Shown piece after piece: positions 504-33,333 of a stretch of 38,313 nt of DNA. Both the position numbers and the translations under genes were made by a program. Each line of letters opens with the position of its first letter. The stretch's first letter is position 1. Source of the stretch: a virus; the IMG/VR virus record IMGVR_UViG_3300018041_000019, positions 1-38,313 of that record, one strand, 5' to 3'. The notes below the pieces were generated by a model that ran no database searches, was not told the DNA's origin, and saw only the letters and a program-made list of their open reading frames with translations.

Positions 504-1066
504 AAGTTATTTTTCCATGATAGTAAATCGTTGCTATTTGCTCTCCAAGAAACAATAACATTTAAATTATTGTTCCAAATGACAGTAGATCCAGGAATGA
601 TTTCCTCTTGAGGAGGAAGCTCAAGCTCTGGTTCTGGCTCAGGTATTGGCTGTAATAATACATATTCCGCTAATTTTTGTTTATCATAATCTAAACTATT
701 GTTAACAATAATATTGTAAGTTTTTGATTCTCCATTAGCAAAGGCTGTAAAAGACTTTGTAAGAGTAGTTCTTACATCTTGAATAAAGTGATATATACCA
801 TATAATTCATCAAGATTGACGTCATTCCATTTTTGTACTTCAACAAATGAATCATTCAGTGTTCTGTATTTAATTGTTTGGTCAAATATATCTTCATAAA
901 AACCTGTTATATTATTTGAACTAATAAGTACATTACTATTTATGTCATTAGCAATTATAGTAACTACCGATGATTCACCAAACTCATCTGTATATGTAAT
1001 AGAATGATTAAAGCTTTCTCCTTCATCCACAGTTGATAATGTAGCATTTTCTGGAAGAAACGGCAT
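500..1066 (-). CDS. Virion structural protein of unknown role
   Basis: A 188-residue protein between gp5 and the tail fibre gene, coupled to both: its ATG abuts the gp5 stop at 1066 and its TGA overlaps the fibre ATG. The middle part is mixed alpha/beta, there is an acidic proline/glutamate stretch near residues 140-155 (PEPEPELELPP), and the C-terminal 30 residues are rich in tryptophan and asparagine. I do not recognise a named family. Its position in the baseplate/fibre operon makes a tail or fibre-attachment role likely. The PE-rich stretch looks like a linker to a small C-terminal domain. Confidence 0.6.
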   Translation of the reverse strand: MPFLPENATLSTVDEGESFNHSITYTDEFGESSVVTIIANDINSNVLISSNNITGFYEDIFDQTIKYRTLNDSFVEVQKWNDVNLDELYGIYHFIQDVRTTLTKSFTAFANGESKTYNIIVNNSLDYDKQKLAEYVLLQPIPEPEPELELPPQEEIIPGSTVIWNNNLNVIVSWRANSNDLLSWKNNL

Positions 1067-3306
1067 TATGTCACCAATACTAATGAACCTGTATCACTAA
1101 TCTTTTTATGATCTCTCATAGTGAATGCTACAAATCTATTAGCGGTATATTTAAATGATACATGAATCCATACCGTATTTTTACCAGAATATTCTAATAA
1201 TATTTGATCATATGGTACAAGTTTAGCAATCTGACAAGCAGCATCTAAATGTTGTTGTCTACTAAATCCTGGTATAACAATATCTGCTGCTTGGCCAAGA
1301 TAATGTTGTGATGTATTACTAGAACCTCTTACATCTCCAGGTCTTCTAAATCCAGAAGTAATCACCATACCAGGAAACATTTCAGCTATAGGTTCTAATA
1401 CATTTTCACATAATCCTTTAAGATTACATACAATTTGTTGTGGTGTTAAGCTCTTTTGTGCAACTGGCATTCTTGTGCCATTCTTTGTTAATGCGCCTAA
1501 AGTAAAGTGCTTGCTTAAATATAAATCAGAACTAAATTTATCTAAAGCATTAATCAATGTACAACTTTGGGGCAATGCTACAGACGTATTAGTTGTAATT
1601 GTACAAACATTAGATATATCTCCATAGTCTTGATCAGTAGCATCTAATGTGCCTTCTGAAATACGTTTGGCAATATATTCTGTTGCGTCACCTTCTTCTG
1701 GTGTTTCATAATGTGCCGCAGCTTCTACGCCTCGAGTAATAATTTGTAACTCTTTAAATGTTGGCATTGATGTTGTATAAGCACTAGGAATAGATAATCC
1801 AGTAGCAGATGATACTCCACTGTTAAAGTCAACTCTTGTTGCATCACCACTTATATTACCTGCAGCTAACATATTAATGTTGCCAGTATGTGATTCAATG
1901 TTGACGCTATTAGCTTTAAGATTATATGAACCTCTTACTGATGTATTCATATTACCATGAACATCAATGTTAGCATTACCCATTACTTTTACATTAAGAG
2001 CATTATTAATTCGTACGTTATGGTTACCATCAATAGTAACATGACCTGAACCTTTAATATAAAGGTGACCATTTCTTTCTAATATCTCATACTTATCACC
2101 AACAATCTTTTCTACTTTAGTACCATTAGCATCAATTTCAAAGAAAGTACCTTTTGTATGATATAGATTAATACGTTCAGAATTCTTTGTATCATCAAAT
2201 TCAAATGTGTGACCAGATTCTGATTGATATACGTGATTGAATGGATACGCAGCATTATATGGTATAGGTGGTTGATCCCACAAATAAGAACCTGCAGTAA
2301 TAACACCTTTAGTTCGAGTTAGTTCTTTTTTACGAACAATAGTTTTCTTTATATCTTCATGTCTTGCAAGTTTGTTAGTATCTGGTTCAAATTGATAAAG
2401 TGGATATTTACCATTTGGATCTCTAAAACCAAGAGACATTTTTAATCCATTATCAAGTTGTCCAGTTGCAGTTAATGAGGTATCAATGGTAGGTATTGCA
2501 GCTTTAACTGGGATTAAATCACCAGTAGGACCAGGAATACCTTCAGCAATAAATAAATCTTTTTCGTTTAATCGTTTTCTTAATTCTGCTCCATCAAATT
2601 CACCATCAATTTTACCAAACTCAGCAAATCCAGTTGCAGCACTAAGATAATCATTATTATTAATATCTTTTAGTATAGACGAATTTTGTAGTACCGTTGT
2701 TCCATTATCATTAATAAATGTAACGAGTGAATCATACATACCTTGAGTTAAATCAGTTTTAATATTAGCATCAAGGAATGGTTTAATAGTATTAGTATAA
2801 GTATCTTCGTCAAACGATCCTTCTGTTTCAATAAGATCTCTACCTTTTTGAGACAAAGTAAATGTAGAAGGTAATGATAACGCAGAGGATGCTAAGTTAG
2901 CATCTCCAGTACTATTTGATATAGTATCACCATCATTTGTAGTTGAAACTTGTTGGCTAGAAGCAGGAAGATATCCGTCTTCTTTTAATATCAGTTCATT
3001 ATCATCACTGTCAATAGCACCATCTGCTTGAGGTATACCCCCAATAGAACCTAATAAAACGGGTTGTTGTTTGTCGTCATCTCTGAACATAACAATAACC
3101 CAAGATCCTTCAACAAAACCTATAGGTGAATGACCTATACCAGAAATACCAGCAGAAGTAATTGGTTGTAGCGGATAAGCCCAAGGAAGATCTTCTGTTT
3201 TAATAAGATTTTTATCATGTGTATGTAAACCAACAACACGTACTTGACAACGTCCTAGTTTAAGAGGATCTTGACGGTTTTCTACTACACCACTATATAA
3301 TTGCAT
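1066..3306 (-). CDS. 5: Baseplate central spike gp5-like with degenerate lysozyme and C-terminal M15 peptidase
   Basis: A 746-residue protein; T4 gp5 is 575. Residues 1-95 look like the gp5 OB-fold. Residues about 148-255 resemble a GH24 (T4 lysozyme-type) domain: LTQGMYDSLVTF, then SSILKDINNNDYLSAA. Only about 20 residues lie between E162-G163 and LTQ, so the segment carrying the catalytic GYGHT-type motif is missing. Residues about 400-500 are short repeats of the triple-stranded spike helix. Residues about 598-746 form an M15 peptidase with the expected zinc ligands H668 (SQH), D675 (GQAADI) and H715 (VWIHVS). The spike therefore seems to have swapped a muramidase for a peptidoglycan peptidase. 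It is followed by gp27 upstream, as expected for a hub pair. Confidence 0.88.
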   Translation of the reverse strand: MQLYSGVVENRQDPLKLGRCQVRVVGLHTHDKNLIKTEDLPWAYPLQPITSAGISGIGHSPIGFVEGSWVIVMFRDDDKQQPVLLGSIGGIPQADGAIDSDDNELILKEDGYLPASSQQVSTTNDGDTISNSTGDANLASSALSLPSTFTLSQKGRDLIETEGSFDEDTYTNTIKPFLDANIKTDLTQGMYDSLVTFINDNGTTVLQNSSILKDINNNDYLSAATGFAEFGKIDGEFDGAELRKRLNEKDLFIAEGIPGPTGDLIPVKAAIPTIDTSLTATGQLDNGLKMSLGFRDPNGKYPLYQFEPDTNKLARHEDIKKTIVRKKELTRTKGVITAGSYLWDQPPIPYNAAYPFNHVYQSESGHTFEFDDTKNSERINLYHTKGTFFEIDANGTKVEKIVGDKYEILERNGHLYIKGSGHVTIDGNHNVRINNALNVKVMGNANIDVHGNMNTSVRGSYNLKANSVNIESHTGNINMLAAGNISGDATRVDFNSGVSSATGLSIPSAYTTSMPTFKELQIITRGVEAAAHYETPEEGDATEYIAKRISEGTLDATDQDYGDISNVCTITTNTSVALPQSCTLINALDKFSSDLYLSKHFTLGALTKNGTRMPVAQKSLTPQQIVCNLKGLCENVLEPIAEMFPGMVITSGFRRPGDVRGSSNTSQHYLGQAADIVIPGFSRQQHLDAACQIAKLVPYDQILLEYSGKNTVWIHVSFKYTANRFVAFTMRDHKKISDTGSLVLVT

Positions 3307-16478: not shown

Positions 16479-17042
16479 CTAAAAGTTAAATGTTAACCCC
16501 ATTCCTACTGCATCATATGGTCCATCACCTCGCTTTATTCGGTATCGAGTATCTAGTGTAATATCATCTGCAATTTTATATCCTAGTTTAACTGCATATG
16601 TAGTATCATTCTGTTGATAGCTAGTATTATAGCTGTCACGAAAACGTACGCTAGTCCCGATTGACCAATCCGAATTAATTTTGTATTTAATACCTGGAGT
16701 TGTAACCCAATAGCCGAAGTTATTATTATTAACGTATTTCTCACCTGAACCTAGATAAAGACTGGTTGACCAATCTGAGTTGAGTTTGTGCTTTAATTTG
16801 ATTCCAGCTTCTAGACGTGTATCATTGTTATTACTTTTTTCATTCTGATCTTTTAGCCGAGTTGATACTGATACATCTAACCAATCATATACATTTTTAC
16901 CAAACTTCATGCCATATGTCATAGCATCAGTTCCGCCTTTAGCATCTTGGCTTTCAAAACGTATACCGTAAAAGTAACCTTGTTTCTCAGCTGATACGGA
17001 TGTTGAAAGTGTTAGTATTGCAATTGCTATTATTTTTTTCAT
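16479..17042 (-). CDS. Predicted outer-membrane beta-barrel protein
   Basis: A 187-residue protein with a clear Sec signal peptide (MKKIIAIAILTLSTSVSA, cleavage after SVSA) and about eight alternating amphipathic strands rich in Tyr, Trp and Asn, ending MGLTFNF. A C-terminal phenylalanine after such strands is the outer-membrane barrel insertion signal. An 8-stranded barrel of this size resembles OmpA/OmpW-like or porin-like proteins. A phage could use it to alter the infected cell's surface, for example to mask a receptor; this is inference. Confidence 0.7.
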   Translation of the reverse strand: MKKIIAIAILTLSTSVSAEKQGYFYGIRFESQDAKGGTDAMTYGMKFGKNVYDWLDVSVSTRLKDQNEKSNNNDTRLEAGIKLKHKLNSDWSTSLYLGSGEKYVNNNNFGYWVTTPGIKYKINSDWSIGTSVRFRDSYNTSYQQNDTTYAVKLGYKIADDITLDTRYRIKRGDGPYDAVGMGLTFNF

Positions 17043-17589: not shown

Positions 17590-18054
17590 TTACGCAATCA
17601 ATCCAGTTTTATACACAGTTCTACCATTTTCTTTCATTGCCGTTAATACTTGTTTACGGTTATCACCATTTGCTTTGTATGATACATGCACCCAACCAGA
17701 ATCAGGAATACCTGGAGTATAAAATTCTAATATCACTTGATCAAATTCTGTATGGTCTACAATCCATTGTGCTACTTCAGCATTAGGAACACCTGGTACT
17801 TCAATGTCTACTGCTTCACCTCTACAATGTTGACTATTACTCGAACCACCAACTGCTTCATTTAGTGCTGGTCCTCTGTATCCTGAGTTAATGACTGTTG
17901 GACCAAATCGATCTCTAATAGGTTGTACTACATTCTCAAATAAAGCTGTACATGCTTCTAAATGAGTATCATTTGGAGTATTGTCTATATCTAGTCTAAG
18001 TGCTGTTTGACTCTTAGTATATTCGGCTAGTGTAAAGTTTTTAGATAAATTCAT
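17590..18054 (-). CDS. M15 family zinc D-Ala-D-Ala peptidase
   Basis: A 154-residue protein with zinc ligands H76 (SQHCRGEAVD), D83 and H123 (GWVHVSYK), and N-terminal MNLSKNFTLAEYTKS typical of the Peptidase_M15_3 type. It has no signal peptide. Its layout is the same as the C-terminal domain of the gp5-like spike, so the two are probably paralogues. A free copy could be a second endolysin acting on peptide cross-links, or a cytoplasmic peptidoglycan recycling enzyme. It begins just after a terminator and has AAGGAAAA before the ATG. Confidence 0.85.
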   Translation of the reverse strand: MNLSKNFTLAEYTKSQTALRLDIDNTPNDTHLEACTALFENVVQPIRDRFGPTVINSGYRGPALNEAVGGSSNSQHCRGEAVDIEVPGVPNAEVAQWIVDHTEFDQVILEFYTPGIPDSGWVHVSYKANGDNRKQVLTAMKENGRTVYKTGLIA

Positions 18055-24071: not shown

Positions 24072-24401
24072 TTATTTATTAGGGGTATTTTTGCTTTCGT
24101 ATGCAGTCTTACCAAAGAATGCCATAACAATTGCAGCTACAGAAACAAAATATGTTGCTGCCATATCTCCTAATATTTTACTTGCAGAATCTAATCCAGA
24201 TAATATTGCTAGTATAACAGCAACTGGGTATAATAACATGCCAAATAATGCGAACCATGTCATTTGTCTTTGAGCATCTCTCATTGCATCTTCGTCTTCA
24301 AGCTTTTTACGCTTAAATTCCATATACATTTTATGCTCTTCAGTTGAAACTTTACCATCCCCGTTGGTATCTGCTGGGTGAAATTCTTTCTCTTCTGACA
24401 T
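24072..24401 (-). CDS. EF-hand membrane protein (two transmembrane segments)
   Basis: A 109-residue protein from the ATG at 24401 (MSEEKEFHPADTNGDGKVST), with GGAGAGAG 5 bases upstream. DTNGDGKVSTEE is a canonical calcium-binding EF-hand loop. Two hydrophobic segments follow (about residues 43-63 and 72-94). Similar EF-hand/two-helix proteins occur in marine T4-like phages, where a holin-like role has been suggested but not shown. Here it lies directly downstream of a membrane adenylate cyclase, so a calcium-sensing role in the same pathway is also possible. Confidence 0.7.
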   Translation of the reverse strand: MSEEKEFHPADTNGDGKVSTEEHKMYMEFKRKKLEDEDAMRDAQRQMTWFALFGMLLYPVAVILAILSGLDSASKILGDMAATYFVSVAAIVMAFFGKTAYESKNTPNK

Positions 24402-24469
24402 TTTTACTCTCTCCAATAAAAAATAATTTTACTTTAATTCCAACTTATTATAATATAACTGTATTGGGT

Positions 24470-26479
24470 TTACTTACTAGTTGCTTTATAAACACCATCC
24501 CAATTAATAGGTGGTACAGAATACATTCTCTCTGCCATATTCTCATAGTATGTAATAAGAAATGGATTAGATTCTTTTAGTTTAGTTGTTAATAAAGAAG
24601 CTGCTCTCCATTCTCCTGCATAGTAAGCACGAAGAAACTTTTTATGAGAAGCAAGATCATCTATATCTGCAATGGTAAATATTTTAACACCAATCGATTT
24701 ACCTTTTACTGCAATGGTATCTAACTCAACTACATTATATTTATATTTTACTAGATTTGCAGTATTCTCACCTATAATGATTCGAACACCATAGTTTTTA
24801 GATTGGCCTTCAAGTCTAGCAGCGAGATTAACGTGATCACCAAGGCATGTATAATCAAACCGCTGATCAGAACCCATATTGCCTACCACAACATTTCCTG
24901 TATTGATTCCCAATCCCATTCCAAATGCAGGAATACCTTCTTGAGTAATTTCAGCATTAAATTTATCTAAATCCTTAAGCATTTCTAAACCAGTTTTTAC
25001 TGCATTTATTGCATGTTCAGTATCATCAATGGGTGCATTCCAAAAAGCCATCTGAGCATCACCGATATATTTATCTATAGTACCATTATTCTCTAGTATC
25101 TTTTTAGTCATGGCTGTCATGTATCTATTCATGATCTTAGTTAAACCTTGTACATCTTCACCATAATGTTCTGATATTGTAGTAAAGCCACGAACATCAG
25201 TAAACATAATAGATAGTTCTCTTGTTTCGCCACCCAATCGTAATAATTCAGGATTCTTTTGTAGTTTTTCAACTAAAGCTGGAGATAGATAGGTACCAAA
25301 TTGTTTTTTAATCTGTTGTTTCTGTTTAAATTCTGATATGAACTTAACTCCATATGCATGAAGCATAATAAGTATACCACCGCCTAATATCAATGTTGCA
25401 TCAAATAAGAATAAGTGTTGACTATATACATAACTTGTAATAGGTACCACTGAAGCTAATAATAATATACCAGTACCTAATCCTACATATACCCATCGAG
25501 ATAAGACTAATAAGATAACAGTCAATAGTATCAATGTTATTAGTTCGGCTCCAGCAGCCCAATCTGGTCGTTGTATATTGATACCACTTGATAATGTAGC
25601 TATAACAGATGCTTGTACTTCGTGTGGCCAAGTTTCACCTCTACTAGTTGCTATAGGATTGGCAATACCTGCAGCTGTGGTTCCTACAATAACTATACTA
25701 CTATCAAATGTTTCGGGTAATTCAGTTAAACTATAAGATACTGGTCTTTGTTGGTAATCAATCCACACTCTACCAATAGGATCAGTAGATAGTATTCCAA
25801 ACTGAGGCACTCTGAGTTTATCAATACCTATATCACTAAACTTTATTTGAAAACTAGGATCACCTGCTAATATTCTTAGCACTTCTAATCCCATACTAGG
25901 ATATAATGTATCACCACTTCGTATAACCATTGGCATTCTTCGAGTAACACCATCTACTTCAGGGAATGTTGTAGCAATACCTGTACCATATGCACGACTT
26001 TCTAATGCTTCAATTGATGCAACGATACCTGGGTATTCTACGACCTTACCAGTAGGATCACCAATCATTACAGCGCCTGGATTACGTGGATGGTTTTTTG
26101 TTTTATCACTACCAAAGTTTGGAAGTACCACTGGATATTCTTCCATAGTTTTAGCTAGTATAGAATCTTTTCCTAATCTATCTGCTTCAGGCATAAGCAC
26201 ATTGAATACAACTAATCCAGCACCTTTTGCATATAACTCTTTAATGATATCAGCATAGATATCTCGACTAAATGGCCATTGACCATATTTTTCTAACGAA
26301 GCTTCGTCTATATTAACAGTAGCGATAGTGGTTTGTTGTTCAGGTGCAGATGTAATGAGTGTATCAAAGTACCGCAATTGCATACTTTCAACAAACATTG
26401 GAGATTGTATTTTAATGAACACTAATATACATAAAGTAATAAGTGCTGACCATGGAGTAAATAGATTTATTTTTTTCAT
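24470..26479 (-). CDS. CHASE2-domain membrane adenylate cyclase (class III)
   Basis: A 669-residue protein. An N-terminal membrane helix (about 11-27) is followed by an extracytoplasmic CHASE2 sensor (about 30-300: FDTLITSAPEQQTTIATVNI, VVFNVLMPEADR, SSIVIVGTTAAG), three helices (about 311-329, 333-352, 359-377) and a class III cyclase (about 420-605). Active-site residues are intact: metals D428 (FTDVRGFT) and D474 (YIGDAQMAF), purine selection K470 and D542 (FDYT), transition state N551 and R555. K plus D predicts ATP, not GTP. The tail (610-669) is helical. A phage-borne membrane cyclase implies cAMP made in response to an outside signal. No SD is visible before the ATG. The gene follows the PA14/curlin gene. 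Confidence 0.92.
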   Translation of the reverse strand: MKKINLFTPWSALITLCILVFIKIQSPMFVESMQLRYFDTLITSAPEQQTTIATVNIDEASLEKYGQWPFSRDIYADIIKELYAKGAGLVVFNVLMPEADRLGKDSILAKTMEEYPVVLPNFGSDKTKNHPRNPGAVMIGDPTGKVVEYPGIVASIEALESRAYGTGIATTFPEVDGVTRRMPMVIRSGDTLYPSMGLEVLRILAGDPSFQIKFSDIGIDKLRVPQFGILSTDPIGRVWIDYQQRPVSYSLTELPETFDSSIVIVGTTAAGIANPIATSRGETWPHEVQASVIATLSSGINIQRPDWAAGAELITLILLTVILLVLSRWVYVGLGTGILLLASVVPITSYVYSQHLFLFDATLILGGGILIMLHAYGVKFISEFKQKQQIKKQFGTYLSPALVEKLQKNPELLRLGGETRELSIMFTDVRGFTTISEHYGEDVQGLTKIMNRYMTAMTKKILENNGTIDKYIGDAQMAFWNAPIDDTEHAINAVKTGLEMLKDLDKFNAEITQEGIPAFGMGLGINTGNVVVGNMGSDQRFDYTCLGDHVNLAARLEGQSKNYGVRIIIGENTANLVKYKYNVVELDTIAVKGKSIGVKIFTIADIDDLASHKKFLRAYYAGEWRAASLLTTKLKESNPFLITYYENMAERMYSVPPINWDGVYKATSK

Positions 26480-26489
26480 TTATTATTTA

Positions 26490-27842
26490 TTAGTTCTGAG
26501 TAACCGTGGCTGAGCAACCACCAATAGTATAGCAAGTTTGTTCCAGACTGTATGATTGGTCTAGTGAACTGTTTTGATCTAGTGTTACTGAACTGGATGC
26601 TGATCCGTATGTTAACGAGATTGAAGCATCATGATTTCCTAAACCTTGTTGTGTTAAGTCAACTGAATGTCCGTTACCTATTAATTCAATCTCAGCATAC
26701 TTACTGCTATCACCTTTTTGTATTACATTAATTAAATTTGAATTACCTGTTACTGTTGAGAATAGTTTTTTGCTATAGTCGTTTGCCTGGAATACATCTA
26801 TAACATTACTATCACCTATTAGGTCAATGCCTACATAATGTCCCTGATTGACGGTATTATTACTTTGTACAACATCAATGTCATTTAAGTCACCAAACAA
26901 ATCTAAACTTATGGTATGTCCTCCCGTAGCGACAGTATCTATTGCACCTGTACCATTAACTCTATCCTGATATAATAATATATCATTTGTACTACCAACA
27001 ACTGATAGTTCTATTAAATTGGGATCAGTGGTATTTGGAGACCCTTGCATAATCTCAATGGTATTTGAATCGCCTGTGATAACACCAGCACTGGCTCCGT
27101 CAATACCTCTTATATGATTGCCTGCTGTGCCTTGTTGTGTTATAGTAACAGTATTATTATCACCTGCTTGATCTATATAAACTGAGTTGTCACTATTTGA
27201 ATTGTATGTGCTGGCTCGTGTTCTTGCTGAAGTAATTTCTGTTGATTGACTACCACTAATACCTGGACTGGATCCAGTTACAGTTGATGTTGAGGGCGGT
27301 GTGTATGTTGTAGCATAAACTGAAGTTGGAACAATAGCAACTGAACCTGTTTGGTCCCAATATAACTTAACTGCGGCACCTCCACCGTTTTCATACATCC
27401 ACATATCTAGGTAATATGTAGACCCACCTGTTAATGTTTGATCTGTTGAAACGTAATTCCAAGTTCCAGCGCCTTGTTCTTGCCAATCATCAATTACAAC
27501 TGTGCTGTCCAATTTCATGTAAACGCCATCATCAGCATAGAGATAGAATTGTATGTCCTGACTGCCTGTATCTGGTATAGTAATGTAACCATAGAAGTGT
27601 ACGATAACTCGATCAGTCTGACCGGAATCTAACACAGCACCACTGCTCCAATTGAAATCTATGCCTGTGACAGTACCTGAACTTAACGCAGTGGGATAAG
27701 TTAAACTTCCACCATTGCCTGGAAATGTGGGATAGGCGCCTGTGCCCTGATAGGTATCGTAGTATAAATCAGCTTCGGCTTTTGTTGCGAAAAAATGCGA
27801 CACGATTAACACTAAGAATGCTATGAATATTGATTTATACAT
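26490..27842 (-). CDS. Secreted PA14-lectin/curlin-repeat fusion protein
   Basis: A 450-residue protein with a signal peptide (MYKSIFIAFLVLIVSHFFAT, cleavage near KAEA). Residues about 28-180 match a PA14 domain (FYLYADDGVYMKLDS, STYYLDMWMYENGGGAAVKL), a carbohydrate-binding module. After a Ser/Thr-rich linker come curlin-type repeats from about residue 220: VYIDQAGDNNTVTITQQGTA, IDVFQANDYS, INVIQKGDS, VDLTQQGLGN, each with N-x-(I/V)-x-(I/V)-x-Q-x-G spacing. This suggests an amyloid-type fibre subunit tipped with a sugar-binding head. Its ATG overlaps the FecR stop (TAATG), so the two are made together. Confidence 0.85.
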   Translation of the reverse strand: MYKSIFIAFLVLIVSHFFATKAEADLYYDTYQGTGAYPTFPGNGGSLTYPTALSSGTVTGIDFNWSSGAVLDSGQTDRVIVHFYGYITIPDTGSQDIQFYLYADDGVYMKLDSTVVIDDWQEQGAGTWNYVSTDQTLTGGSTYYLDMWMYENGGGAAVKLYWDQTGSVAIVPTSVYATTYTPPSTSTVTGSSPGISGSQSTEITSARTRASTYNSNSDNSVYIDQAGDNNTVTITQQGTAGNHIRGIDGASAGVITGDSNTIEIMQGSPNTTDPNLIELSVVGSTNDILLYQDRVNGTGAIDTVATGGHTISLDLFGDLNDIDVVQSNNTVNQGHYVGIDLIGDSNVIDVFQANDYSKKLFSTVTGNSNLINVIQKGDSSKYAEIELIGNGHSVDLTQQGLGNHDASISLTYGSASSSVTLDQNSSLDQSYSLEQTCYTIGGCSATVTQN

Positions 27843-28945
27843 TAGTTCTGTCTCGTAGTGATATTGGTAGTACCTTCACTATTAACTCTGTTAGTTATAT
27901 CAACCGCACCTTGTATTTGACGTATAGTTGTTTCTTGCGTTGTAGGTACGTTAACACAAGATATATCACTACCTGTTGTATTCATACACAGTTCAATAGA
28001 TATGCTATCAGTAGTATATGTTACACCTTGGTCAGGAATAAAATCTGGAAGCAATTCATTCTTATCTGAAGTGGATAGTGTTCTTGATTGTGACATAGCT
28101 AGTTGTAGATCTAGTATGTCTAATACATTCTTTAAGAAGTCTCTATCTAACAAGTTTTCACTAAGTCTATCTGTATATATCTCAGATAGGTCTTTGTCTA
28201 ATTCATTTTCTAATAGGTTTTGATCTAAGGCATTGTCATCTAATAGACTAATTGTAGTATTATCCATTTCTTCATCTTTAAATTCTTTTGGCGGTCCTAC
28301 GATAATGATTTGTCTAATCATTTCTTCTGTTAGATCAACAATGACTGGTGAAGTAGGCTTTGCTTCTAGGTTAGGTACGCGAGTAGCTTCAAATGGTTTA
28401 TTCATTAAGACACTACCGCCTAGACTAGCAACTTCAATAGAACCTGTAACGCAATCACGTTCAATGTCTAACCAACCAGGAGGACAACTTGGCAATAGAA
28501 TAACTGTGGTACTACCTATCTCATCTACTGTGGCGGTAAAATCAGTACCACGAACGGATACTGTGGCACTTGGTGTTCTAATTTTAACTGATTGTGGATT
28601 GTTTTTTGCGATTTGACCTGATGCGTAACGAGCTGTACCAGATGCTATTTTGATTGATAGTTTACTTGCATCTGCATTTTTTGGATCGTAAACAAAGTCA
28701 TCAATGATTAACTTTGCTGATTCTGTCATTTGAACCTGAGTAAAATCTTCAAATGTAATTTCTAAAGTACCTTGACCAGTACGTAGAGTATCTAACATCT
28801 CTACATTGGTACCCATAATACCTTCTAATGTTAAATTTTTTCTTTTAATACTTGCAGGATCATGTTTTTGATCACTAATAGTTCCTATAGCACTATGAGA
28901 TATTATTGGTACAATTGTCAGTAGTGCTATTAGTAACTTTTTCAT
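27842..28945 (-). CDS. Exported FecR-domain protein
   Basis: A 367-residue protein with a Sec signal peptide (MKKLLIALLTIVPIISHSA). A FecR domain fills about 38-145: GTLEITFEDFTQVQMTESAK, SIKIASGTARYASGQIAK, SVKIRTPSATVSVRGTDFTA. The centre has an acidic helical region (about 230-290: LLDDNALDQNLLENELDKDL). The end (TTIRQIQGAVDITNRVN) resembles a curlin repeat. FecR domains act in the periplasm in signal relay or surface-polymer binding, and in bacteria often neighbour CHASE2 proteins, as here. AGGAAAGAAT precedes the ATG. Confidence 0.82.
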   Translation of the reverse strand: MKKLLIALLTIVPIISHSAIGTISDQKHDPASIKRKNLTLEGIMGTNVEMLDTLRTGQGTLEITFEDFTQVQMTESAKLIIDDFVYDPKNADASKLSIKIASGTARYASGQIAKNNPQSVKIRTPSATVSVRGTDFTATVDEIGSTTVILLPSCPPGWLDIERDCVTGSIEVASLGGSVLMNKPFEATRVPNLEAKPTSPVIVDLTEEMIRQIIIVGPPKEFKDEEMDNTTISLLDDNALDQNLLENELDKDLSEIYTDRLSENLLDRDFLKNVLDILDLQLAMSQSRTLSTSDKNELLPDFIPDQGVTYTTDSISIELCMNTTGSDISCVNVPTTQETTIRQIQGAVDITNRVNSEGTTNITTRQN

Positions 28946-29042
28946 ATTCTTTCCTATGTAACTCTATTTCATAAAGTGTTTGAGCATTGAATGCATTAAC
29001 ATATTTATTCCATAGTTCATTTTTTTTCAAGATAGTTTCCAT
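28893..29042 (-). CDS. Possible 49-residue protein between curlin and FecR genes
   Basis: An ATG at 29042 overlaps the stop of the curlin gene (TAATG) and opens a frame METILKKNELWNKYVNAFNA, then QTLYEIELHRKEYEKV, which overlaps the FecR start and ends at 28893. The helical charged first 35 residues look coding; the last part, read in the FecR leader, does not. It may serve mainly to couple FecR translation to the curlin gene. Confidence 0.4.
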   Translation of the reverse strand: METILKKNELWNKYVNAFNAQTLYEIELHRKEYEKVTNSTTDNCTNNIS

Positions 29043-29953
29043 TAGTCTGACTGTATCAAACTCCAAGTATTACTTGAGCCTGTTATATTAATATTAGCAT
29101 CATTATCTTGAGCACCTGTTTGAGATGAAGATACAGTGTTACTTCCGCCTGTAATATCTAACTCAATGTTGTGTCCAGCTGTACCAGTACTACCATTTTG
29201 TGTGGCTGTAACCAGGTTACTCGAACCAATAATACCAATATTCATAATGTGATCACCAACATCAGTTTGTGATGTTGTTACAACGTTGCTTGATCCATTT
29301 ATATCTAGATCGAAGAACATACCACCTACACCACCTATACCACTTTGTGTAACACCAACATTATTAGCTGAACCAATTACATCAATATCAAGGATAGCAT
29401 TGTCGCTAGACAAGTTAAGTGTTGCAAGGTTAGCACCACCGCCACTTATAGCTACACCTACTGTGGTTGTGTCAGCGTTGATGGTAAAGTTAAAGTCATT
29501 GTAACTACCACCTGTTGCTGTTGCAATTAGACTGTTGCCAGTACCTAGTAGATCAAACACTAGATCGTTGTTATCACCAGTCATTTGTATGTCAGCAGTG
29601 TTATTGGCTGCAACTCCTAGTCCGTCACCATTAACATCAATACTTGCTACAGAGTTTGAACCTGTAATGTAGTAAGTTAAATCAATACCAACACCTGATG
29701 CTACTGTTGTGTTTAAATCAATACCTAACAAGTTACTACCACCAATTTGCTGTATGTCAACAGTTTGACTACTACCAGTAATCGTAGCTGCTGTTCCTTC
29801 TGTATCACCAATACCGTAGATCTTGTTTCCACTACCGTCTTGTTTTAGATCGATGGTAGATGAACTACCAATTTGATCAATATAGATACTATTGTCTGCA
29901 CTAAAAGCTAATGATATAGTAAATAATGAATATAAAAAGATTATATGTTTCAT
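29042..29953 (-). CDS. Curlin-like fibre subunit (CsgA/CsgB-type repeats)
   Basis: A 303-residue secreted protein from the ATG at 29953 (MKHIIFLYSLFTISLAFSAD), with AGGAGTAAAA upstream; a longer in-frame start at 29983 lies inside csgG. After the signal peptide (cleaved near AFSA) come many repeats of the curlin kind: IYIDQIGSSSTIDLKQDGSG, VDIQQIGGSNL, VGVTQSGIGG, VVTTSQTDVGD, LVTATQNGS, TVSSSQTGAQD, with glutamine/asparagine ladders. Size is twice E. coli CsgA (about 151), so it should form a longer beta-solenoid. It is encoded directly after CsgG. A nucleator, CsgB, is not separately seen; the PA14 fusion could fill that role. Confidence 0.85.
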   Translation of the reverse strand: MKHIIFLYSLFTISLAFSADNSIYIDQIGSSSTIDLKQDGSGNKIYGIGDTEGTAATITGSSQTVDIQQIGGSNLLGIDLNTTVASGVGIDLTYYITGSNSVASIDVNGDGLGVAANNTADIQMTGDNNDLVFDLLGTGNSLIATATGGSYNDFNFTINADTTTVGVAISGGGANLATLNLSSDNAILDIDVIGSANNVGVTQSGIGGVGGMFFDLDINGSSNVVTTSQTDVGDHIMNIGIIGSSNLVTATQNGSTGTAGHNIELDITGGSNTVSSSQTGAQDNDANINITGSSNTWSLIQSD

Positions 29954-29964
29954 TTTTACTCCTA

Positions 29965-30750
29965 TTATGTGGCGAAATCCCAAATATCTTTGCGTTCGCC
30001 TTCTTTTATTAATTCAACTACAGCTGCTTCAATTGTAGTTTTTACTGCTAATGTAGCTGGTTCATTTAATGTTATACCAGACTCAAATTCAAATATTTGT
30101 GTTGCATTATCATAAAATTTTAATATAGCCATACTATCAGCGGTAGAGTAAATTGTTTTTTGTACATTTACCGCAGCTAATACTGCTCCTGTATTAACAC
30201 TTACTGCTCTTAAACTTACCGTAATAATATCTTCACTAAACTGTGTTTGTGGTCCAATACCTAAAACTCTCATTCCTACACCACCACTTCGTGTAGATGA
30301 ATCATATCCTGTTATACCACCTTCAATAATCATACCAGCAAATTTCATTGGCATAAGTTTCTTAGCATTAGGACCATCATATGCTTCACGCATTTGTCGT
30401 ATAATCTGTCTTTCTTGAGTTAAACTTGCAAGACCAACCCGTTCTACGACATCAAACCATTTACTGTTACCAACATCTTTTAATGCTTTAATTAAGAAAC
30501 TTTCTGCTCCTTGTGTAACAGCAGTACTAAAACTTGCCTGAGTATCACTAGGTCTTCTTTGACCTGTTTTATCAGTAAAACTATATACAGCAACCGTTAC
30601 TTTACCGAGTGCTGGCTGGTTTATTGTATCAAATTCTTTAGCAGTCGACTTTTCAACAAGTACAGGTGGTTCGTATTTACCATTAATAGTCTGTGTAGTA
30701 GCACATCCGTTTAATAATATAAAGGATAGTAATAAAATTAATGTTTTCAT
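29965..30750 (-). CDS. csgG: CsgG curli secretion pore, outer-membrane lipoprotein
   Basis: A 261-residue protein; E. coli CsgG is 277. It has a lipoprotein signal (MKTLILLLSFILLNGC, lipobox LNGC). Alignment to CsgG is clear through KVTVAVYSFTDKTGQRRP, FSTAVTQGAESFLIKALKD, WFDVVERVGLASLTQERQII, MIIEGGITGYDSSTRSGGVG and LGIGPQTQFSEDIITVSLRA. CsgG forms a nonameric outer-membrane channel that exports curli subunits. In the constriction loop, E. coli Y51 and N55 are not conserved here (PSDTQASF), while F56 is. Its start overlaps the CsgF stop (TAATG). CsgE is not seen in the window. Confidence 0.93.
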   Translation of the reverse strand: MKTLILLLSFILLNGCATTQTINGKYEPPVLVEKSTAKEFDTINQPALGKVTVAVYSFTDKTGQRRPSDTQASFSTAVTQGAESFLIKALKDVGNSKWFDVVERVGLASLTQERQIIRQMREAYDGPNAKKLMPMKFAGMIIEGGITGYDSSTRSGGVGMRVLGIGPQTQFSEDIITVSLRAVSVNTGAVLAAVNVQKTIYSTADSMAILKFYDNATQIFEFESGITLNEPATLAVKTTIEAAVVELIKEGERKDIWDFAT

Positions 30751-31202
30751 TAAAATGTAAAGTCACCCAATGGTATAGTCAATGATGTTGTAGTTCCTGC
30801 CATATCAGTTACACCTAACACTATATCACCTGAACTTTTATCCCAAGTAATAATATTACCTTCAAAGTTTAATGTTCCAGATGTTGGACTAGTGCCATCA
30901 TCATTAAACATTGCTGTAGCTACGTCTTGTGAAATTTGTGCGTAGATACGTGATTCCAAATTGCTCATGAATTTTTTAACGTTTGTACTTTCTGCTTCAC
31001 GTTCTGCTTCTTTTAATGCAGATTCTATCTTATCAGATATAGCTTTTTTACGAGAGTGTTCTTGATTTTCAATTGTTAAGACGTGTGCGGAATAGCCATT
31101 CCCATTAAACGCTGGACTTTTAAAATTAAAGTCACGTAATGGTTGTGCTAATGCAATACTACTAAATACAAGACTAAGAATCAGTATCTTTTTTGCGAAC
31201 AT
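30750..31202 (-). CDS. csgF: CsgF curli assembly factor
   Basis: A 150-residue protein with a signal peptide (MFAKKILILSLVFSSIALAQ). The mature N-terminus (PLRDFNFKSPAFNGNGYSAH) corresponds to the CsgF segment that plugs into the CsgG vestibule (E. coli FQFRNPNFGGNP...). A helical stretch (about 50-90) and a beta-rich C-terminus (ITWDKSSGDIVLGVTDMAGT) follow, as in CsgF (138 residues in E. coli). In E. coli CsgF anchors the nucleator to the pore exit. Its start overlaps the preceding holin-like gene by 29 bases. Confidence 0.9.
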   Translation of the reverse strand: MFAKKILILSLVFSSIALAQPLRDFNFKSPAFNGNGYSAHVLTIENQEHSRKKAISDKIESALKEAEREAESTNVKKFMSNLESRIYAQISQDVATAMFNDDGTSPTSGTLNFEGNIITWDKSSGDIVLGVTDMAGTTTSLTIPLGDFTF

Positions 31203-31443: not shown

Positions 31444-31532
31444 GATAGTATAAGTCCAACTACAACTCCAATAACAAAGGATATAAACATATCTTTATCA
31501 TACCATATTGGCATATAAGGTAATTTTTTCAT
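31431..31532 (-). CDS. 33-residue single-pass membrane peptide
   Basis: From an ATG at 31532 that overlaps the TGA of the nuclease gene (ATGA) to a TAA at 31431-31433, overlapping the next gene's start. MKKLPYMPIWYDKDMFISFV is followed by IGVVVGLILSWII: one hydrophobic helix of about 18 residues. Tight overlaps on both sides support translation. Function unknown. Confidence 0.55.
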   Translation of the reverse strand: MKKLPYMPIWYDKDMFISFVIGVVVGLILSWII

Positions 31533-31948
31533 AGTTTTACTTTACCTTCTTTGATTAATCGGTTTCTGTTTAATAGATGTTTTTCTTCAACATCATCTTT
31601 ACTTCCACCAAAGTATGCAACAGCGTAACCTTCATTAATCATAATGTCAGTAACCATTTCTGTTCCATCATTAGTAGTAAAGTCACCTAATATTCTGCCA
31701 AATTTACCTTTAGCATCATACTTGGCGCATTTAAGAATAGACTTCTTACCTAATAATTGTTTGAGTTTTTCTTTTGCAGCTAGACCAAATACTTTTTCTA
31801 CTTTGTCTCTTGTGCGTGATTCTGGCGTATCAATGCCGACGATGCGAACTCTCTCATTTGCTAATACAACTCCAAATCCTAAATCAATATCAACGTCAAC
31901 GGTATCGCCGTCGACTACTCTTTTAATAGTAACGTAATATGTAAACAT
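31529..31948 (-). CDS. Staphylococcal nuclease-like (thermonuclease) protein
   Basis: A 139-residue protein of the SNase family. Motifs are VVDGDTVDVDID near the N-terminus, RIVGIDTPESRT (the catalytic R and metal-binding D with the E), and KYDAKGKFGRILGDF with the second catalytic R. There is no signal peptide, so it probably works in the cytoplasm, for example on host DNA, unlike many bacterial secreted forms. Embedded between two holin-like genes. Confidence 0.85.
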   Translation of the reverse strand: MFTYYVTIKRVVDGDTVDVDIDLGFGVVLANERVRIVGIDTPESRTRDKVEKVFGLAAKEKLKQLLGKKSILKCAKYDAKGKFGRILGDFTTNDGTEMVTDIMINEGYAVAYFGGSKDDVEEKHLLNRNRLIKEGKVKL

Positions 31949-31951
31949 GGT

Positions 31952-32230
31952 CTAGTCCCTTCTAGCATCTGTCTGTTCAGCACGTGCAATTCTATCTAAA
32001 TCTGGAGGTATACCTAATGCGTGGCTTACTTTTGTATCAATGCGGATAACATCATGGTTCATTGTAGACACTCTTTTATCGAGTGCTTTAATGATTCCTG
32101 ACATACCTTTAACTGATCCAGTTACTCCCTCTAAGATAAACCGAACTGTTAAGAATACAAAATAACCTGCTGCACATGCTCCGGATATAGGAAAACCGAC
32201 GTCGCCTATAAATTGGAAAATCTCTCTCAT
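31952..32230 (-). CDS. Holin-like membrane protein (paralogue 1)
   Basis: A 92-residue protein: MREIFQFIGDVGFPISGACA, one membrane segment to about residue 34, then a helix with IIKALDKRVSTMNHDVIRID and a charged C-terminus (RIARAEQTDARRD). Same architecture as 31174-31443. A late promoter octamer ends 5 bases before the ATG and no SD is present, so the mRNA may be leaderless. Lysis holin, or membrane adaptor of the curli-like cluster, are both open. Confidence 0.6.
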   Translation of the reverse strand: MREIFQFIGDVGFPISGACAAGYFVFLTVRFILEGVTGSVKGMSGIIKALDKRVSTMNHDVIRIDTKVSHALGIPPDLDRIARAEQTDARRD

Positions 32231-32235
32231 ACATC

Positions 32236-32243
32236 TATTTATA
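32236..32243 (-). promoter_or_regulatory. T4-type late promoter 5 bases before an ATG
   Basis: Minus strand TATAAATA, GATGT, then ATG at 32230. This is the same spacing as at 6646-6653, which predicts a transcript starting at the start codon. It could drive the whole curli-like cluster late in infection. Confidence 0.55.
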
Positions 32244-32250
32244 TGGAAAC

Positions 32251-33333
32251 TTACTTCAAATTGCGGACTTTGGATTCTCTTTTGATTCTCTCGATTTCTA
32301 AATCTGTTTCATATCTACCAAGATTTTTACCAACTGGGTCATTTTTGGGCTCAATTGGATCAACCACAGGTTCACTTTTCGGGTCTGGATCTAACCATTT
32401 CCTTTTAGTTTTTTGTGGTACTCTTATTTTAGCATTACTTTTAATGCTACCCAAATCTTTTTTCTCAGGAATTATTAAAGATTCGGGCTGTTGCTTTTTT
32501 ACAATAGGTTCTTTTCTTATTGGTGCATTAATCGGTGCTCGAGGTGGACTTGGATGTGATTGTTTCCATGACCAGTTAGCAGCAATAAGCATCAATACAG
32601 CTAAAGGATCAAATACAATAACAATCATTATAATCATTCCTCTTACAGCTTTTTCTAAAAGGTTCTTATCAGGATTATTACCATATATTAATGCTGCAAT
32701 ATATTTAATAGGTCCAACCTCAGCTTCAAGTTCACGTAAGTTTTTAGATATAGGTGCTTTTGATTGTTGTAGTTCAATAATCTTATCTTGTGACTTTTTA
32801 ATATCAGCAGTAAATCTAGCCCGATCTCTTCCTTGTGATCGTCGTATTTTTAATGCTCTTTCAGCAACATCTTCAACATAAGTATTATTTTGTTTATCCT
32901 TTAGTGTTCTACCTTCTGATTCCATTTTACGATTAACAACATCATCCATTTGCTTGATAAGAGACTTATTATTCTTAATAGTTTCTCTTTCAATATTGAT
33001 TTGTTCATCGATGAATACAATCTTTTCAGCAATATCACCAGTTGGTATAGCTTGATCTAAATGAGCTTTAGATAAGAAACCAAATATACCCATTGAAGTA
33101 ATAACCATGAGTATAATAACGGCAAAAGTTAAATAAGTTTTGAGTAAGAATGGAGCAGGCCTCCAGTTTCTATATAACCAAGATGCTACTACTAATTTAG
33201 AAACTTCTAATACACTACCCATAACAAGAATAGGAACTACAGCTGCAGCAAAGATAGCAGCTAATCCCATTAAAGAATAAAACGCAGCAATAACCGATAA
33301 GGTTAATGCGGATATAAACATTAGAATTGTCAT
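32251..33333 (-). CDS. Membrane protein with central coiled coil and proline/lysine-rich tail
   Basis: A 360-residue protein. Three hydrophobic segments lie at about 5-28, 30-52 and 66-88 (TYLTFAVIILMVITSMGIFG), followed by a coiled coil (about 105-205, IDEQINIERETIKNNKSLIK and similar), a fourth hydrophobic segment (about 230-255, MIIMIVIVFDPLAVLMLIAA) and a proline/lysine-rich cytoplasmic tail (260-360). I recognise this as a membrane protein found in marine T4-like phages; no function is established to my knowledge. It is coupled by a 4-base overlap to the pyruvyltransferase-like gene. Confidence 0.65.
   Translation of the reverse strand: MTILMFISALTLSVIAAFYSLMGLAAIFAAAVVPILVMGSVLEVSKLVVASWLYRNWRPAPFLLKTYLTFAVIILMVITSMGIFGFLSKAHLDQAIPTGDIAEKIVFIDEQINIERETIKNNKSLIKQMDDVVNRKMESEGRTLKDKQNNTYVEDVAERALKIRRSQGRDRARFTADIKKSQDKIIELQQSKAPISKNLRELEAEVGPIKYIAALIYGNNPDKNLLEKAVRGMIIMIVIVFDPLAVLMLIAANWSWKQSHPSPPRAPINAPIRKEPIVKKQQPESLIIPEKKDLGSIKSNAKIRVPQKTKRKWLDPDPKSEPVVDPIEPKNDPVGKNLGRYETDLEIERIKRESKVRNLK

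Follow-up and report, generated by a model that had tools for sequence, protein, structure and literature searches.

Genomic context and gene content of the curli cassette

The window analyzed here is the whole 38,313-nucleotide stretch of IMG/VR record IMGVR_UViG_3300018041_000019 (positions 1 to 38,313) and derives from a T4-type phage, of whose genome it covers 38 kb. Its minus strand carries, at positions 24470 to 31202, six genes in the order csgF-csgG-curlin-FecR-PA14/curlin-cyclase, with the cyclase gene last. The first two encode a CsgF curli chaperone/gate (30750 to 31202; 150 aa; E 2e-12) and a CsgG outer membrane curli export pore (29965 to 30750; 261 aa; E 3e-49) with the lipobox LNGC recognized by eye. 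They are followed by a curlin-repeat protein of the CsgA/B-like subunit type (29042 to 29983; 313 aa), whose Curlin_rpt match (E 8e-4) falls just short of the Pfam cutoff and whose homologues in HTVC008M and Melnitz are annotated as curlin. The fourth gene (27842 to 28945) encodes a FecR-domain periplasmic protein (367 aa; E 2e-10) with a signal-peptide-like N terminus and a curlin-like strand at the C terminus. The fifth (26490 to 27842) encodes a secreted protein of 450 aa with PA14 (E 4e-10) and curlin-repeat (E 7e-7) domains and, by eye, a signal-peptide-like N terminus, annotated as a second curli-like subunit or adhesin. The genes overlap or are closely packed, and only 10 bp separate the stop of the PA14/curlin gene from the start of the cyclase gene. 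The six genes are kept as one unit on which purifying selection acts; among the pairs that allowed an estimate, most dN/dS values of the non-cyclase genes were below 0.3.

With CsgF, CsgG, curlin repeats, FecR, and the cyclase adjacent and collinear, the locus belongs to the phage type VIII secretion system (T8SS)/curli cassettes with FecR and cyclase. Both curlin repeats and CsgG, which are curli biogenesis genes, were identified with Pfam, and the formation of functional curli fibers through CsgG by the window phage is putative. Inspection by eye placed ORFs at 31529 to 33333 upstream of the cassette, and a sigma-70 scan of the sequence gave matches below the chance level. On the other side, the cyclase gene is adjoined by a gene (24072 to 24416) for an EF-hand-like protein with membrane helices, which has homologues of about 69% identity elsewhere in HTVC008M and Melnitz.

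The sequence-only reading had treated the cyclase as a phage gene, and the T4-type surroundings agree with this. The window encodes a baseplate hub/tail lysozyme and ribonucleotide reductase (RNR), both matched in PHROGs, and a PhoH protein with thousands of phage relatives. In addition, T4-type Gp23 and/or terminase was present in 9 of 28 tested IMG/VR records that carry this cassette, and among these nine are records 328 and 337 kb long; jumbo-size carriers of the cassette are not mentioned in the cited literature on phage curli genes. The possibility that the IMG/VR matches are mostly bacterial contamination is ruled out for these nine records, the others being fragments. The baseplate hub protein (1066 to 3306), in its C-terminal part, and a separate small protein (17590 to 18054) appear by eye to have a peptidase-like domain in common, with tblastn cross-hits of 34% identity.

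A CHASE2-class IIIb adenylate cyclase

The last gene of the cassette, spanning exactly 24470 to 26479, encodes a 669-aa CHASE2-class IIIb adenylate cyclase with an ATG start, as identified by Pfam, catalytic residues, an AlphaFold2 (AF2) model, and PDB matches. The intact CHASE2 class III cyclase claimed from the sequence was confirmed by the ORF and Pfam; it lies on the minus strand, and the plus strand is full of stops in this interval. The CHASE2 domain (residues 19 to 323; E 2e-37) and the Guanylate_cyc domain (residues 420 to 595; E 1e-20) both match well beyond the Pfam curated cutoffs. In the confident AF2 model (mean pLDDT, 86.6), a first transmembrane helix (residues 9 to 25) precedes a folded CHASE2 domain (residues ~28 to 305), three further helices fitting membrane spans (residues 308 to 326, 330 to 355, and 361 to 394), the catalytic domain (residues 418 to 603), and a C-terminal helical domain (residues 609 to 653), which agrees with the earlier description of a complete sensor and four membrane helices. 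The model thus has the predicted layout of a CHASE2 receptor cyclase, with an N-terminal transmembrane helix, an extracytoplasmic CHASE2 domain, three transmembrane helices, and a cytoplasmic output domain, where membrane insertion is suggested by the helices. Pseudomonas aeruginosa CyaB ranks among the closest solved folds; CyaB (3R5G) and Spirulina platensis CyaC (1WC1) have the same catalytic fold and the same Lys-Thr, Asn, Arg, and two-Asp motif, and the window cyclase differs from both in having CHASE2 as its sensor.

The class III (IIIb) residue set, D428, D474, K470, T544, N551, and R555, is complete. All 80 phage homologues have D428, K470, D474, and R555, and 78 of them also have N551. 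The sequence-only reading had numbered D428, K470, D474, N551, and R555 correctly and had in addition assigned base selection to D542. This last assignment is ruled out by the homologue alignment and by the Thr of 3R5G and 1WC1, both of which point to T544, a residue located seven positions N-terminal of the catalytic Asn and occupied by Thr in 77 of the 80 homologues. A Lys-Thr pair is characteristic of class IIIb cyclases, and ATP is therefore still the predicted substrate, so that the product is predicted to be cAMP rather than cGMP. The dN/dS values of the cyclase (0.03 to 0.14 in the pairs where they were estimable) support purifying selection on the catalytic apparatus.

Distribution of the cassette among phages

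CsgF and CsgG have been described in such phages previously (PMC7029224, PMC9004378), and the full cassette, including FecR and the adenylate cyclase, was published in 2022 for pelagic myoviruses and podoviruses with an alphaproteobacterial affinity, with podovirus versions reported to have a histidine kinase ahead (PMC9599517). The cassette being already published, neither the phage cyclase nor its link to a phage FecR is new; what is new here is the bacterial operon counterparts, the curlin-like FecR tail, and the sensor/cyclase recombination between phages. The term CHASE2 is absent from PMC9004378 and PMC9599517, and the cited literature reports neither cyclase activity, a cAMP receptor, nor a curli fiber for these phages; cells infected by Melnitz showed no clumping (PMC9004378).

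The sequence-only reading had called the cyclase very rare in phages, which does not hold, since a scan of IMG/VR found relatives encoded on at least 598 stretches and the gene is annotated in two cultured phages, the Pelagibacter phage HTVC008M (KC465899) and the methylophage Melnitz (MZ577098). The cassettes of these two phages consist of the same six genes in the order csgF-csgG-curlin-FecR-curlin-cyclase, as in the window, and the window proteins share 39% and 38% (cyclase) and 47% and 45% (CsgG) identity with those of HTVC008M and Melnitz, respectively. Unlike in these two phages, the second curlin of the window has a PA14 domain. The Melnitz-type cyclase has D544 and S551, whereas the window cyclase has T544 and N551.

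Of the fetched viral loci, 33 had flanks of at least 7 kb each when copies of the window were left out, and 32 of these have CsgF, CsgG, and FecR next to the cyclase. The proposal that FecR and the cyclase form a pair was therefore right in that the two travel together, but the unit is a six-gene curli/T8SS cassette, and the cyclase is part of a surface-amyloid cassette that is widespread among aquatic phages rather than being a lone hijack of host signaling. The exception, L005, has a 72% identical cyclase and lacks CsgF, CsgG, and FecR within 10 kb. Listed before the cyclase in this locus are a 61% homologue of the small outer membrane (OM) barrel-like product of window positions 16479 to 17042 and a PA14/curlin match. 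The barrel-like protein could possibly be an alternative OM partner.

Bacterial counterparts and possible origin of the cassette

Bacterial T8SS operons have been stated to be without FecR and cyclase (PMC9599517). Consistent with this, both genes were missing from 20 of 22 inspected alphaproteobacterial T8SS loci. Two Caulobacterales genomes (L084 and L233), however, contain a chromosomal csgF-csgG-curlin-FecR-CHASE2 cyclase operon with bacterial flanks, so that T8SS operons including both genes are found in bacteria too. The L233 operon, which was found with a phage-FecR profile across 398 Caulobacterales genomes, sits within a 706-kb contig of even GC content. L084 was also considered as a mis-binned phage contig, which is ruled out by its flanks, bacterial by eye (glycosyltransferases, TonB receptor, and peptidase), by the GC content of its cassette (51 to 57%, versus about 33% in the window), and by the presence of the operon in the second genome.

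In the CsgG tree, L084 and L233 grouped with the phages (SH-aLRT, 99), apart from the 20 operons without FecR and cyclase, and the cyclase tree, which of the two bacteria held L084 only, agreed; both trees were obtained by quick searches and contain some long branches. The CsgG of one viral contig, L013, grouped with the L084 and L233 operons rather than with other phages. In line with the alphaproteobacterial placement considered earlier, the nearest bacterial relatives found are nearly all alphaproteobacterial. Given the two Caulobacterales operons, the whole cassette could come from an alphaproteobacterium, and as part of our best explanation as a whole, we consider it somewhat probable that the phage cassette was taken from, or is shared with, alphaproteobacteria.

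FecR and its curlin-like tail

The AF2 model of the window FecR matches the cell-surface signaling domain of PupR (6OVK; E 6e-5). The tail motif was chosen after inspection and its 62 sequences share ancestry; with these qualifications, Gln occurs within the last four residues of all 62 phage cassette FecRs (background, 20%), and a curlin-like terminal strand occurs in 82% of phage FecRs (background, 9.5%; PA14/curlin proteins, 95%) and in 0 of 48 bacterial FecRs outside T8SS operons. Of the bacterial T8SS-associated FecRs, that of L084 has a curlin-like tail and that of L233 does not. Because the motif is post hoc and the sequences are related, the curlin-like tail is a lead, not proof. A speculative and rather doubtful extension is that the T8SS-associated FecR is a hybrid sensor which docks curlin subunits or fibers via this strand, with the operon forming an amyloid-export-sensing cAMP circuit common to phages and some Caulobacterales, and with phages swapping its sensor and cyclase modules.

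Proposed role of the cyclase and alternative explanations

Related arrangements of FecR and cyclase are known in bacteria. Sinorhizobium meliloti CyaK is a CHASE2 cyclase (36% identity) and is encoded directly 3' of a gene for a protein of 1197 aa with FecR and TPR domains. From its position, product size, and domains, we take this FecR gene to be nsrA. NsrA is reported to be an OM-associated receptor needed for CyaK-dependent cAMP signaling (PMC7529298; PMC13001267), and many Bradyrhizobium relatives likewise have a long FecR protein directly upstream of the cyclase. The window resembles NsrA-CyaK in encoding a FecR-domain protein near a CHASE2 class III cyclase but has the PA14/curlin gene between the two. 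In addition, whereas NsrA is described as an OM barrel, the 367-aa window FecR has neither a TPR nor an OM β-barrel in Pfam or the AF2 model and is accompanied by CsgG/CsgF and curlins. The Campylobacterota CHASE2 cyclase-PDE-FecR-OMP-TPR clusters also have FecR and a CHASE2 cyclase as neighbors but differ from the window in that curli genes are absent from the described cluster, which includes a cAMP phosphodiesterase (PMC9239204).

Based on the CyaK analogy and the position of FecR upstream of the cyclase in Bradyrhizobium, we infer that CHASE2 is informed of the state of the curli machinery by the phage FecR. The cyclase would thus probably be the signaling end of the phage curli cassette, reporting the state of the surface system via cAMP. 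Gene content, gene order, conservation, and predicted folds are as described above; a FecR-CHASE2 contact is suggested by the gene neighborhood and one bacterial analogue, and curlin sensing and the cAMP output and target are inferred. In this model, the infected cell would display curlin fibers or adhesins via CsgG/CsgF, and FecR, with its anti-sigma cell-surface signaling fold and curlin-like C-terminal strand, would sense curlin export or back-up in the periplasm and pass the signal to the CHASE2 domain of the inner membrane cyclase. The dimeric cyclase would then convert ATP to cAMP, which would adjust the infected cell through a receptor of the host, either CRP-like or of another type. 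The wiring would be that of NsrA (FecR-TPR-OM barrel)-CyaK, with the T8SS replacing the barrel. A phage-encoded receptor was sought as the cNMP-binding domain PF00027, which was found in 0 of 30 phage records encoding the cyclase or the whole cassette, 28 of which may be incomplete, and a host receptor is accordingly the likelier cAMP target. The route from FecR through CHASE2 to cAMP is a specific model and an alternative to reading FecR as an iron regulator.

The cyclase may instead alter host cAMP physiology generally, affecting metabolism or a CRP-driven replication program, and merely be cotransported with curli genes, with FecR and the curlins providing no input. Independent travel of the cyclase is compatible with this idea, as seen in the locus L005 described above, in the exchange of cyclases separately from their cassettes (L065 and L073), and in several loci where the cyclase is divergently oriented. 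The association with CsgF, CsgG, and FecR in all but one of the well-flanked loci, together with the proximity of cyclase and FecR in bacteria also, speaks against it, and we regard it as possible but on the unlikely side. Less probable still is that the cassette serves mainly as a modified OM pore, for uptake or for the timing of lysis as has been proposed for Melnitz, in which case the cyclase would time the pore and amyloid would not be sensed. Phage CsgG/CsgF have been modeled as structurally altered and a lysis-timing role has been argued (PMC9004378); that study counts CsgA/B as missing, but curlin-repeat proteins are present in the window and in pelagiphages (PMC9599517), so a CsgG substrate exists.

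It is highly improbable, given the purifying selection, that the cassette is a piece of host DNA that is merely carried along or decaying, with no function under selection. The Ser that replaces N551 in Melnitz-type cyclases could lower activity, and nothing in the window favors decay; the genes are full length with low dN/dS, their order is kept across very divergent phages, and viral curli components are expressed in metatranscriptomes (PMC9599517). Signaling of the curli export state by the cyclase remains the reading that we prefer.

Module exchange and a standalone C-terminal domain

The cyclases of L065 and L073 are 92% identical, whereas their cassettes otherwise share 34 to 54% identity, with 44 to 54% for CsgF, CsgG, and FecR. 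In L007, CHASE2 (residues 61 to 300) is 83 to 93% identical to that of the window, and the cyclase domain (residues 421 to 600) is 77 to 95% identical to that of Melnitz and 40 to 60% identical to that of the window. These sequence comparisons indicate that phages exchange the sensor and cyclase halves by recombination. The L007 gene (L007:9959-12034) has the form of a chimera with a window-like sensor and a Melnitz-like output, including Ser at position 551 and Asp at position 544, and may be an assembly artifact rather than a real chimera.

An extra match to the cyclase HMM beside the cassette proved to be a separate gene for the C-terminal domain of the cyclase alone, with no catalytic part. 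This gene, encoding ~105 to 130 aa, shares its locus with the curli cassette (L007:3373-3744, L009:4643-5011, L021:3341-3736, L025:17761-18132, L027:4041-4436, L031:4965-5285, L036:15012-15407, L047:17974-18360, L066:4806-5114, and L072:9464-9775), and two versions of it were unmatched among INPHARED phages. The encoded protein is possibly a regulator of, or a decoy for, the cyclase.
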